Assembly (NCBI GenBank): GCA_021845325.1
Contig: JAKBRR010000021.1
Span: forward strand, 1-11,424
Length of the DNA: 11,424 nt
Origin: Thermoplasmata archaeon
Lineage (GTDB): Archaea > Thermoplasmatota > Thermoplasmata > Thermoplasmatales > Thermoplasmataceae
Direction of reading: 5' to 3'
Shown here: in pieces, positions 7,501-10,801 of the stretch
Position numbering within the stretch: the first letter of the stretch is position 1
Layout of the letters: each line of letters opens with the position of its first letter
Program-made: the position numbers and the translations under genes
Notes under the pieces: model-generated
The model's database searches: none
What the model saw: the letters and a program-made list of their open reading frames with translations, nothing else
Told to the model about the DNA's origin: nothing

Positions 7501-8577
7501 CTAGATGTTAACCCCTAATGAATCATAAAAATCCATAAATTGCGTCTTTCCTCGTTCTTCTCTATAGTAATCACCAATTTTGAATGAATACCATTCAGTA
7601 GCATTTTTATAGGCTTTCTTATCGTTTAGAGATAGGATAGTTTCTTTCCATTTTAGCAGATCAAGTTGGATTAAGTATGGAGAATTCATTAATACCTCTT
7701 TAAAAATTTCTATATCAGATCCCAATACTGGAATACCACAGTTAAGAGCCTCTATAACTGGATAATTAAATCCTTCAGATGTTGAAGGTGCTAGATATAA
7801 ATCAGCACTGTTATAATATTTAACTAGTGCTTGGTCTTCCAAATATTTATTAATATTGAGTACTCTATCAGGGTTTTTGCATAATATATCTGAGTTTCCA
7901 ATGTGAATCAACAAATAATCATTGGAAAGTGAGTCCATTAGATTACCTAGGAATTCTAGGTTTTTGTTTGAGGAATTAAATGAAACATTAAGCAATACAA
8001 ATTTTGACTTTGGAATTGAAAGTGTATCCCTACAATTTATTCTGTCAATTTTAGAAAAATAATCGGGAGTCCAGTGATGAATAACCTTGCTTTTAATTTT
8101 AGGGTAAAAATGATTGAGCAATTTGTCCGTATTTTTTGAGATTGTTGTAAGTCCAAGCAAATTGTAACAATAGTCCAAATCTCTTTTTTCAAAAAATCTA
8201 TAATACCATGTATAGTCCTTTCTTGTGTCATTGTTAAGGAAGTATAAGTCATGAACCGTTCCAATAATAGACTTTTTGAATCTGGACAAATGAAAAAAGT
8301 CAGGTGATACTACGTGTACATAGCTATACTTCTCTATTTCCTTGCTCCAGTTTGATGGAAAGTGAAACGATAAAATGTAGGATAATTTTTCAGGAATTAC
8401 GTTCGGTGCTATTGTTTTGTATTCCGCTGGTGAATTTGCCATAAGCTTATTAGCTAGAGATTTGAAATATAACGTATTTGAAAAAAATCCAAAATGAGCT
8501 AGATTATCTGCGAATCTAAAGATCCCAGTACCTGGGGGAAAACTGGTTACAATTGCTAATTTATTCTTGGAAATCAC
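7501..8577 (-). CDS. Family 4 (GT-B) glycosyltransferase
   Basis: A 358-residue GT-B glycosyltransferase, retaining GT4 type. The N-terminal Rossmann domain starts LAIVTSFPPGTGIFRFADNL (7-26), with VHVVSPD and IIGTVHDLYFL further on. The C-terminal domain has VLLNVSFNSSNKNLEFL (194-210), the donor-phosphate region, and the EX7E motif SEGFNYPVIEALNCGIPVLG (Glu268 and Glu276). No membrane segment is seen, so it acts on the cytosolic face. It starts with GTG overlapping the upstream stop as GTGA and is preceded by AGAGGT at a 6-base spacing, so it is translated as the last gene of a three-gene operon. Sugar donor and acceptor cannot be told. The frame is intact and AT-rich like its operon partners. 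Confidence 0.9.
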   Translation of the reverse strand: MISKNKLAIVTSFPPGTGIFRFADNLAHFGFFSNTLYFKSLANKLMANSPAEYKTIAPNVIPEKLSYILSFHFPSNWSKEIEKYSYVHVVSPDFFHLSRFKKSIIGTVHDLYFLNNDTRKDYTWYYRFFEKRDLDYCYNLLGLTTISKNTDKLLNHFYPKIKSKVIHHWTPDYFSKIDRINCRDTLSIPKSKFVLLNVSFNSSNKNLEFLGNLMDSLSNDYLLIHIGNSDILCKNPDRVLNINKYLEDQALVKYYNSADLYLAPSTSEGFNYPVIEALNCGIPVLGSDIEIFKEVLMNSPYLIQLDLLKWKETILSLNDKKAYKNATEWYSFKIGDYYREERGKTQFMDFYDSLGVNI

Positions 8578-10001
8578 TTTTCTACCTCTCTATCCTGACT
8601 TATGTTCTCGTATCTGAATCCTAGAAATTTCTTAAAATGGTCGTTTATCTTTTTTATTTTATATTCATCAACTGGTACGTGGCTATTACTAGATGAAATC
8701 AGCTCAATTTTATATTTATTCATTTCTACGGAAGCAATTGCTTTAATATCTTCAAAATAGACTGCTAGAGATCTATGATCATATTTTTGAAGTTTGCTGA
8801 TTATAGCAGGTTCAAATTTTAGCATTTCATTGTAATCTTCCTGAATTCCAAAACTTTCTGAATATGCAATATCTTCAGATAAAAGATCAAGATCGACAAT
8901 ACCTTCAGAACAACGAACTAAGAATTTAAATAAATTAGTCAGAGGCTGATATCTGTTATTTACTGGTAATTCTACTTTGCTTATTGGCTTTATGATTAAT
9001 GGCACTCTAATAAGACTATCAGAAAGTAAAACACCGTGACCATAAAAATGTTCTTCACCAAAATTCTGACCATGGTCAGCAGTAATTATGATTACAGTAT
9101 CATCATACACTTCGCTTTTCTTTAACTTTCCAATTAAATCTCCCATGTGCTGATCCAACAAAGTAAGCTCTCGCTTGTATAGTTTTTTGTATGTGTTTAG
9201 TACCTCCGGACGTATATTATTTTCACCTGATAGAAAAGATAACATTTTTTTTCCCTCTCCGCTAAAAAACTCTCCCTTACCTACCGAATAAGGATCGTGC
9301 ATTTCCATAAAATTTATAAATAAAAAAAATGGGTTCTCGAATGCACTATTCTTTATTACATTAACGATCTTTTTACCGCCTTTTTGCTCTGGATATCCTA
9401 GTGATCTGGCTATTTTTAGAAATTTTCTGTATATCGATATCATTCCAGGCAACTTTAAAAAATTCCAGTTTTTACAAGAAAAACGAATCATTTCCTTTAA
9501 ATCAAAATTATTAGCGAGGCGAATGATTTCATCTTCTGACTTTGGAAATTCATTTCTCAGTTTTAACCTGGTAACTTCCCATAAATCGTAAAGATCTTCA
9601 AACATATCTATAAAACCGAGATAATCGAAACCCCTCTCGAAACCTGTTCCAGGACTTAAATTTGGATTGGCTACGAACCCATAGGTATTATATCCATTTT
9701 CCTTCAACACTTCGGTAAGAAACTTTCCGGGGAAATTGTAAATCTGATTCATAATTACTGAAGATTGCTTTAGAGTTTGAGTTTCATGTACTCTATGTTC
9801 AGAAGGGTATAATCCAGTAAAATATGAAACGTGAGATGGAGTTGTCCAAGATGAAGGGGATATTGCATTTTCATAATAAATTGATTTGTTAATAAGTTCG
9901 TTAAGATTTGGCAACTTACCTTCGTTTAAAACCTCATTAAAGACATCAAACCTGCAGGTATCAAAAACAATGAATACTATGTTAGGCTTTTTTTCTATCA
10001 C
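8574..10001 (-). CDS. Sulfatase-fold (alkaline phosphatase superfamily) hydrolase or transferase
   Basis: A 475-residue protein of the sulfatase/phosphodiesterase fold. The metal site is built from Asp14 in IVFDTCR, Asp309-His310 in ITADHGQNFGEE and probably His322 in FYGHG. NFMEMHDPY (His235) is the usual mid-domain motif. The family signature C/S-x-P-S-R is replaced by T53-T-P-S-H in SSWTTPSHVSYFTGLYPSEH. The residue normally oxidised to formylglycine is therefore threonine, as in phosphoesterase-type members, so a true sulfatase is unlikely. No signal peptide or membrane helix is visible, so it should act in the cytosol. It begins with GTG overlapping the end of the CysD-like gene as GTGA, and itself ends in a GTGA overlap with the GT4 gene. 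The residues after about 340 are not recognisable and may bind the substrate. Possible roles are phosphatase, phosphotransferase or sulfate-ester enzyme on a sugar precursor; I cannot choose from sequence. Confidence 0.82.
   Translation of the reverse strand: MIEKKPNIVFIVFDTCRFDVFNEVLNEGKLPNLNELINKSIYYENAISPSSWTTPSHVSYFTGLYPSEHRVHETQTLKQSSVIMNQIYNFPGKFLTEVLKENGYNTYGFVANPNLSPGTGFERGFDYLGFIDMFEDLYDLWEVTRLKLRNEFPKSEDEIIRLANNFDLKEMIRFSCKNWNFLKLPGMISIYRKFLKIARSLGYPEQKGGKKIVNVIKNSAFENPFFLFINFMEMHDPYSVGKGEFFSGEGKKMLSFLSGENNIRPEVLNTYKKLYKRELTLLDQHMGDLIGKLKKSEVYDDTVIIITADHGQNFGEEHFYGHGVLLSDSLIRVPLIIKPISKVELPVNNRYQPLTNLFKFLVRCSEGIVDLDLLSEDIAYSESFGIQEDYNEMLKFEPAIISKLQKYDHRSLAVYFEDIKAIASVEMNKYKIELISSSNSHVPVDEYKIKKINDHFKKFLGFRYENISQDREVEK
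8583..8588 (-). promoter_or_regulatory. Ribosome binding site deciding the GTG start of the GT4 gene
   Basis: AGAGGT on the minus strand lies inside the end of the sulfatase-fold gene, 5-6 bases before GTG 8577. No competing ATG near the family N-terminus has a comparable site. Confidence 0.5.
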
Positions 10002-10801
10002 ATATATCCCAGTTTCCTAAGTCGGTCCATCATGCCTTCTTTGTCCTGAGATCTGCCAGCCCTCTCAGAAGTAGATGACAGATCCTGCTCCCAAGCAGGA
10101 AGATTTGAAAGTGGTGTTGAGTCTTCTTTGCCGTCAATAGATCTGAATCCCCTTTCATAAAGGGGATGTTTAGGAAGCTTATTTTGGATTATATAATCCC
10201 ATATATCTCTTTCAGTAAACGTTAATATTGGATGCAACCTATAGTGGAACGGCTTATCTCTAGAACTTAGAAAAACCTCAGAAGAACGCGCTTCATTCTC
10301 ATCCCATCTAACCCCCACAAATAGTGCCTCAAATCTGTTTTCCTCAATTGCACTGTTCATAGCAACTGTCTTTAAAAGATGATTTGCTACTTCCGTGTGA
10401 AGTGAATACGGTATTGTATCATTTGAATAATTTAACACTCTTAGTTCCTTCTTGTTATCAGAATTCAATTTATCGACTTCTATATTTCCATTTATAACAT
10501 TGGACAACACATTTTCATTTTTTGCTACCATTATATTGATTTTCCAAAAATTTGAGGCGAGATTTAAAAAATCCCACGTCTCAGAAAAATGTAGGCCATG
10601 ATCTATAAACAGTACTGGAGGCATAGGAACATTGTTTTTTGAAGCATATTTACTCACCAAATCCAACATTACAGTGCTATCTTTCCCACCACTAAAAACG
10701 ATAGCAAATCTATGAAACCTTTCATAAGCTTCATTAACGACCTCTTCTGCAATTTTGACCTTACTTTTCATAGATAAATATTCAATCCTTTTTTCAGGCA
10801 T
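9998..10801 (-). CDS. CysD/CysH-family PP-loop nucleotidyltransferase without cysteines
   Basis: A 267-residue member of the PAPS reductase/ATP sulfurylase small-subunit superfamily. Motifs: PP-loop AIVFSGGKDSTVML (33-46), VLFIDHGLHFSETWDF (63-78), VGVRWDENEARSSE (162-175), RLHPILTFTERDIWDYI (188-204), then LYERGFRSIDG and the C-terminal TSERAGRSQDKE followed by LRKLGYM. The last block parallels the CysD ending (TTSERQGR...GY). The GC motif after GFR, common in CysD and CysH, is replaced by DGKEDST, and the whole protein has no cysteine. It therefore lacks the ECGLH cysteine needed to reduce PAPS or APS. Adenylyl transfer, as in ATP sulfurylase, or another ATP-PPi type activation is more likely. 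No CysN GTPase partner is in the window. It is the first gene of the operon, with no ribosome site before ATG 10801, which suits a leaderless transcript. Its stop overlaps the GTG of the next gene. The substrate is unknown. Confidence 0.85.
   Translation of the reverse strand: MPEKRIEYLSMKSKVKIAEEVVNEAYERFHRFAIVFSGGKDSTVMLDLVSKYASKNNVPMPPVLFIDHGLHFSETWDFLNLASNFWKINIMVAKNENVLSNVINGNIEVDKLNSDNKKELRVLNYSNDTIPYSLHTEVANHLLKTVAMNSAIEENRFEALFVGVRWDENEARSSEVFLSSRDKPFHYRLHPILTFTERDIWDYIIQNKLPKHPLYERGFRSIDGKEDSTPLSNLPAWEQDLSSTSERAGRSQDKEGMMDRLRKLGYM

Follow-up and report, generated by a model that had tools for sequence, protein, structure and literature searches.

A cysteine-free CysD-like protein and a threonine-type sulfatase-fold enzyme form a recurrent gene pair with a putative role in archaeal glycan sulfation

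Introduction

Sulfated surface glycans of Halobacterium and Thermoplasma, including the sulfated N-glycans of Thermoplasma acidophilum, are covered in part of a review (PMC11625862). Agl30 and Agl31 (VNG1056C/VNG1057C), sulfatase-fold proteins from Halobacterium salinarum, were reported in 2025, in this one haloarchaeon, on genetic evidence, to be required for the normal sulfation of N-glycans, and Haloferax volcanii made to express them sulfated its own glycan (PMC11980604). The main text of that report contains no occurrence of PAPS (3'-phosphoadenosine 5'-phosphosulfate), APS (adenosine 5'-phosphosulfate), phosphoadenosine, or adenylyl, and within that text no donor is stated and no ATP-sulfurylase partner is named for Agl30/31 (PMC11980604). 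This study concerns an 11,424-nucleotide stretch of DNA from a Thermoplasmata archaeon (contig JAKBRR010000021.1 of assembly GCA_021845325.1; referred to as the window), in which the gene for a CysD-like ATP-sulfurylase subunit overlaps that for a sulfatase-fold enzyme.

The window enzyme resembled Agl30/31 in its alkaline-phosphatase/sulfatase fold and its location in an archaeal glycan gene cluster, and the PDB entries named as closest to Agl30/31 (5G2U and 6HHM) ranked second and fourth for it. Formylglycine (FGly)-dependent S1 sulfatases (5g2u, 6hhm, and 4upl) shared the fold and, presumably, the conserved Asp and His at the expected places of the metal site; unlike these, enzymes of the window type have Thr/Ser for Cys, are encoded near or in one chain with an enzyme resembling ATP sulfurylase, and are probably cytosolic. 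CysDN ATP sulfurylase shared the PP-loop, a G-x-R-x-D-E motif, and an ERxGRxxD tail with the CysD-like protein, whereas the window contained no CysN and the partner was a sulfatase-fold enzyme. PAPS is the known biological sulfuryl donor, and PAPS-dependent sulfation (CysC together with the Sulfotransfer families) would have the same expected outcome, sulfate esters on glycans; in contrast to that route, full-length APS kinase (two of 56 genomes) and PF00685/PF13469 sulfotransferases (the same two, of 26) were rare among the relatives tested. A literature search by title and start of abstract, covering few subscription papers and no bioRxiv preprints, returned no paper on the gene pair or on an APS-driven route.

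Results

Association of the CysD-like and sulfatase-fold genes

A scan of genomes with the single sequence returned no relative, and a scan with an alignment returned 92, the best 80 of which were kept. The counts cover 44 loci, namely the window and L001-L043, with L009 and L039 coming from a single genome; L044-L080 were left out as distant PP-loop proteins (23-31% identity). A sulfatase-fold partner was adjacent to the CysD-like gene in 15 of these loci, fused to it in two, and within three genes in one, so that the adjacency is not due to chance. In 14 of the 15 adjacent pairs, both genes were on the same strand; the CysD-like gene came first in 13 of these 14, and seven pairs had a 4-base overlap (the window, L009, L011, L013, L021, L033, and L039). 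The features of the window locus are listed below.

9998-10801, minus strand: CysD-like ATP-sulfurylase subunit, 267 amino acids (aa), ATG start, no cysteine (PF01507, E = 4e-36)
10676-10693, minus strand: PP-loop SGGKDS (residues 37-42), an ATP pyrophosphatase signature; S37, G39, K40, D41, and S42 invariant in 30 aligned homologues
10001-10066, minus strand: C-terminal tail ERAGRSQDKEGMMDRLRKLGYM (residues 246-267), common to true CysD; the pattern ends 116 of the 120 listed homologues
9998-10001, minus strand: GTGA overlap of the CysD-like TGA stop and the sulfatase-fold GTG start (plus strand, TCAC)
8574-10001, minus strand: alkaline-phosphatase-superfamily (sulfatase-fold) enzyme, 475 aa, GTG start, proposed sulfuryltransferase (PF00884, E = 1e-27)
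9843-9845, minus strand: codon of Thr53, the predicted nucleophile (SSWTTPSH); Thr or Ser in all 119 stand-alone and all 52 fusion aligned rows
9072-9077, minus strand: Asp309-His310, predicted metal ligands from the superfamily; invariant in alignment A3 (87 rows)
8574-8577, minus strand: GTGA overlap of the sulfatase-fold TGA stop and the GT4 GTG start (plus strand, TCAC)
7501-8577, minus strand: GT4-type glycosyltransferase, 358 aa, GTG start (PF00534, E = 6.1e-12; PF13692, E = 1.4e-10)

In a search limited to long proteins with a CysD-like part, both domains were found in one chain in 56 of 61 matches by Pfam. These fused chains comprised Thermoplasmata, Patescibacteria, PF16347-type, and Desulfovirgula-type groups and a pair grouping with haloarchaea, and some carried a PF01663-only partner domain. 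Mapped onto a sample tree of 58 rows, the fused state required five fusion/fission changes, at least four of which were forced by starred branches. One fusion (744 residues) was modelled with a predicted template modelling score (pTM) of 0.86.

Among the 26 genomes reached via the loci, the partner was found in 18 (G001-G018) at E<1e-60 and in 22 at E<=1e-3. Five genomes with Nanoarchaeota/Parvarchaeota titles (G003, G004, G005, G007, and G009) all carried both genes, four of them on different contigs. In the family of G008 (77 genomes), both genes were present in 13, CysD-like/CysD only in three, partner only in one (counted at E<1e-50), and neither in 60 (p=4e-11); two of the three CysD-only cases were gene fragments, one at a contig end, and looser partner matches gave 13, 3, 5, and 56 (p=2e-8). 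These p-values are indicative because thresholds were set after viewing the matches and the genomes are incomplete and related.

A neighbourhood without joint function would fit the 26 of 44 loci in which the sulfatase-fold gene did not occur in the examined stretch, some of which ended near the CysD-like gene; recurrent fusion, the 4-base overlaps, and co-occurrence all speak against it, and the fusions in particular make this reading very unlikely, almost negligible. The CysD-like/sulfatase-fold pair is nearly certainly a functional unit. Many archaea and some bacteria carry it, in some cases as a fusion. Restriction to a single genome, which would have refuted the module proposed in the first-pass annotation, was therefore not what was observed, and the finding of a co-evolving pair of a cysteine-free CysD-like protein and a Thr-type sulfatase-fold enzyme among glycan genes agrees with that part of the proposal.

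Properties of the CysD-like protein

The CysD-like family comprised 996 homologues at E<=0.001 (120 listed), and its best solved relative was CysD (1zun; E=3.7e-24 with profile A1). Named relatives of the window protein included Thermoplasmata (L001, 58% identity; Oxyplasma meridianum, 56%), Parvarchaeota (57%), and Nitrososphaeria (54%), which makes an archaeal origin of the window likely. Thirty aligned members retained S-x-GKDS and the C-terminal tail ERxGRxQDKExxMxxLRxxGYM, a weak segment of which was also alignable to 1zun. The clearest match to this tail among true CysD proteins was the C-terminus of Ilyobacter CysD, ERSGRAQDKEDGGGLEELRKDGYM, whose gene is accompanied by cysC, an AprA-type gene, and a gene for a GTP-binding protein. 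The Arg of the ERxGR motif is presumably sulfate-binding in APS reductase, for which a literature search gave no source.

In two trees (midpoint-rooted for drawing), the family was placed with CysD and away from CysH. The ECGLH cysteine motif of CysH was absent from the CysD-like protein, while the PP-loop and CysD-type tail were present, and 65 of the 120 listed homologues, including the window protein, contained no cysteine. A reductase identity was rejected given the lack of cysteine and the separation from CysH in the trees. The window protein scored 112.7 bits, below the NCBIfam CysD cut-off (NF003587, 195 bits), and was therefore named CysD-like rather than filed as CysD. In P0300, a GTPase domain is fused to a CysD-like domain (436 aa) in a one-chain CysN-CysD form, which suggests that cooperation with a CysN-type protein is still possible for members related to the CysD-like family.

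In L004, L008, L010, L014, L016, L018, L019, L020, L022, L023, L026, L037, L038, L132 (4878-5096), and L133 (4312-4530), a protein of 72-79 aa that by eye resembles ribbon-helix-helix proteins is encoded upstream of the CysD-type gene; the two examples scanned had no Pfam match. Its C-terminus, L-R-x-LGY, copies that of CysD, and the protein may be a regulator or adaptor that binds where the CysD tail binds.

A defence system was also considered. In PADLOC, the CysD-like protein matched BrxP (1.5e-13) over residues 13-97 only, and DndC weakly; the PP-loop parts of P0297 (the Desulfovirgula fusion) and P0285 matched BrxP (9.9e-18) and SspD (5e-6), respectively. BrxP pairs with PglZ in BREX, and no PADLOC match, PglZ-type or other, was found for the sulfatase-fold protein or for the GT4 of the window; a defence role was rejected. 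Viral cargo was likewise rejected, with no relative in viral_contigs and only remote family matches in PHROGs.

Properties of the sulfatase-fold enzyme

The window enzyme had both the fold and the conserved Asp/His of the alkaline phosphatase superfamily. It reads T-T-P-S-H at the place of the S1 signature: Thr53 occupies the position of the Cys converted into FGly in S1 sulfatases, and His57 replaces the Arg of the motif. In a motif search confined to the Cys type, C-x-[PA]-x-R was found within residues 31-110 in none of 179 proteins. Inspection by eye (no predictor was run) showed neither a leader nor a membrane helix, and the enzyme is probably cytosolic.

The first Foldseek match was phosphonate monoester hydrolase (4uph), with an E-value equal to that of sulfatase (4upl). 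In VIA-align, the best matches were mostly sulfatases, with phosphonate monoester hydrolases also among them; this comparison covers only chains ranked by Foldseek, which limits what it says about LtaS/EptA-type transferases.

Thirteen of the 120 listed sulfatase-fold relatives ended in L..LGY or alike. In the haloarchaeal cluster of L094 (Halopiger xanaduensis SH-6), sulfatase-fold/alkaline-phosphatase-family proteins at 12282-13565, 17507-18916, and 14722-16326 ended in LGYKD, LGYVD, and LGYME. An LGY-type C-terminal tag thus appears to be common to several partner proteins.

Canonical CysD in place of the CysD-like protein

A sulfatase-fold gene was found near another CysD where the A1-type gene was missing (G110 and G120) or a second partner existed (G055). 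In L132, L133, and L134, a CysD of the true-CysD clade (support, 98/81) was followed by a gene for 407-410 aa and then by the sulfatase-fold gene, whose orientation was opposite in L132 and L133. In the two loci scanned (L132 and L134), CysD exceeded the NCBIfam cut-off and the adjoining gene encoded an EF1A/CysN-type GTPase. The GTPases scored 229.8 and 195.7 against the CysN model (cut-off, 336), and 294.0 and 230.1 against the elongation factor 1-alpha model, which is higher but below that cut-off too; therefore, a CysN role rests on position. This replacement of the CysD-like gene argues more strongly than any other observation for a need of the sulfatase-fold partner for APS. A protein of ~97 aa was encoded directly before CysD in L132 (5093-5386), L133 (4527-4820), and L134 (3637-3927); it was alike in L132 and L133, and had no family match in the two scanned.

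In an alternative reading, an organic phosphate is adenylated by the PP-loop enzyme, and a group linked through a phosphoryl is then moved by the Thr enzyme, as by LtaS or EptA. FAD synthases, members of the same superfamily that perform such adenylation, were among the sequence relatives of the CysD-like protein, the alkaline phosphatase superfamily includes phospho-transferases with a Thr nucleophile, and the PF01663-only partners and phosphonate monoester hydrolase matches point the same way. On the other hand, the tail and the trees tie the family to CysD, canonical CysD and GTPase genes lie beside the same partner, and sulfatases dominate the best VIA-align matches; we consider an organic phosphate substrate improbable.

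PAPS route and sulfate assimilation in relatives

Full-length APS kinase was detected in only two (G019 and G021) of 56 genomes with a CysD-like or partner match. Sulfotransferases of PF00685/PF13469 were found in two of 26 genomes, again G019 and G021 only, neither of which had a strong sulfatase-fold partner. No CysN was present in the window, and none of the 26 related genomes exceeded the CysN cut-off, a soft negative because the GTPases of L132 and L134 also fell below it. These results agree with the earlier proposal that the locus lies outside the standard sulfation route.

If APS from the CysD-like protein were phosphorylated by an unrecognised kinase, the sulfatase-fold enzyme could still use PAPS. 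PAPS is the familiar donor, none is stated for Agl30/31, and the APS kinase family was above its cut-off in the Haloferax volcanii control, a cut-off that short partial matches also pass. However, the rarity of full-length APS kinase and the direct fusion of the proposed APS maker to the proposed transferase, which leaves a kinase no obvious place, make a PAPS donor unlikely.

Salvage, with sulfate released by the sulfatase-fold enzyme and then activated by the CysD-like enzyme to be assimilated, would fit the family names. Sat was found in nine of 26 genomes. In G008 and G011, a CysH-like match lies near Sat, so that assimilation is separate there; in both, Sat was far from the pair, and none was found in the five small genomes with both genes (G003, G004, G005, G007, and G009). 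Furthermore, the Cys-type FGly motif was not found in any of the 179 proteins, and Agl30/31 expression adds sulfate, as reported in the main text of PMC11980604. Salvage is therefore highly improbable.

Genetic context

GT4-type genes were common nearby and directly followed the pair in L001, L006, L027, and L030; the following gene had no Pfam match in L013 and was something else in other loci. Among 55 hand-chosen flanking proteins from 20 loci (16 with and four without a partner in the stretch), 15 were Glyco_trans_1_4, eight Glycos_transf_2, and four epimerases. Around five unlinked partners, 42 chosen proteins included nine Glycos_transf_1, four epimerases, three UDP-sugar dehydrogenases, and three nucleotidyltransferases. 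On a Halopiger plasmid, the CysD-like gene was between a PF01384 transporter gene and glycosyltransferase, sulfatase, and alkaline-phosphatase-family genes, and on a Natrinema pellirubrum plasmid it adjoined aglM. No glycosyltransferase was annotated in the stretch around the CysD-like gene on three other haloarchaeal plasmids, and no sulfatase-fold neighbour was annotated on two Desulfolutivibrio plasmids with the CysD-like gene, one of which carries a sulfotransferase gene ~2.7 kb from it.

In the window, the open reading frames and the plus-strand TCAC at both joints confirmed three minus-strand genes with two GTGA overlaps, and the Glycos_transf_1 domain of the GT4 was above the family cut-off in a Pfam scan. 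The GT4 is an associated rather than a fixed member, one of several kinds of glycan gene around the pair, and the idea of a fixed trio was not upheld.

The trio is flanked by IS21 on one side and the start of an IS5-type transposase on the other. In the IS21 element (5033-7005), istA is broken into two overlapping frames (5033-5611 and 5608-6246), followed by istB (6418-7005); the IS5-type transposase (10914-11423) is cut off by the window end, and minus-strand remnants at 2214-2782 resembled a decayed IS3-type transposase by eye. The region 52-1579 encodes a small protein without a family match and a LegC/PseC-like DegT aminotransferase, a further sign of surface-sugar genes; a relative of the latter was also found near the pair in L013.

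Discussion

The present analysis established the gene architecture, conservation, fusions, co-occurrence, and lack of a recognisable PAPS route in nearly all tested genomes. Taken together, the pair is likely to sulfate glycans, and the best explanation, held with moderate confidence, is a sulfation module that runs on sulfate and ATP and passes the sulfuryl group of APS to a glycan via the Thr enzyme. Between the options left by the first-pass annotation (sulfur or phosphorus, attaching or trimming), sulfur and attachment, with APS as the carried form, were favoured over phosphorus and trimming.

Judged by its family, the CysD-like protein would convert ATP and sulfate into APS and PPi with no need for CysN. 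The key step, and the novel one, would be the transfer of the sulfuryl group from APS to Thr53 with the release of AMP; a cytosolic sugar linked to a nucleotide or lipid would then receive this group on a hydroxyl. The equilibrium of APS formation is unfavourable, and immediate use would pull it forward. GT4 and other nearby glycosyltransferases would build the glycan that gets sulfated, probably a surface N-glycan or polysaccharide. A role for APS as the direct sulfuryl donor is somewhat probable. Whether APS goes directly from a CysD-type ATP sulfurylase, be it stand-alone or fused, to a Thr-nucleophile sulfatase-fold sulfuryltransferase, as a PAPS-free route across archaea and some bacteria, is a closer call, to which we incline slightly; the same donor may serve haloarchaeal Agl30/31.

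Several observations weigh against APS-driven sulfation by this pair. The substrate of the CysD-like protein could have shifted, given a score below the NCBIfam CysD cut-offs, and CysD without CysN is not known to be an efficient producer of APS. Association was weaker in the family of G009 (32 genomes; both, 19; CysD-like/CysD only, three; partner only, three; neither, seven; p=0.003), in which the genes were mostly unlinked, and most genomes are metagenome-assembled, so that absences are soft. An APS-kinase match above the cut-off was found in 20 of the 56 genomes (10/26 and 10/30), 18 of these matches being pieces of <=58 of 152 positions, and the sulfotransferase test consisted of two families (PF00685 and PF13469) in 26 genomes. 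In G022, G025, and G026, which carry the CysD-like gene, neither a partner nor a full APS kinase nor a sulfotransferase of the two families was detected. A sulfotransferase of Desulfolutivibrio sulfodismutans is annotated ~2.7 kb from the CysD-like gene, with no sulfatase-fold gene annotated in the stretch. The window protein was compared with Agl30/31 by fold only, a fold general to S1 sulfatases. In Halobacterium, according to the main text of PMC11980604, a third sulfatase-fold protein of the cluster, VNG1063H, did not affect the sulfation of the glycan, which persisted at a basal level without Agl30 and Agl31.

Conclusions

From the window locus and related loci, a likely partner that activates sulfate for sulfatase-fold sulfotransferases can be named. 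Single-chain fusions, such as that of Desulfovirgula thermocuniculi DSM 16036, place activation and transfer on one protein, and since the key enzymes are fused in several lineages, the idea is testable on a single enzyme. If APS is the donor, sulfation by this pair would need neither APS kinase nor PAPS, and many archaeal proteins named sulfatase or PAPS reductase may be misnamed; in that case, biological sulfation would not depend universally on PAPS as its donor.

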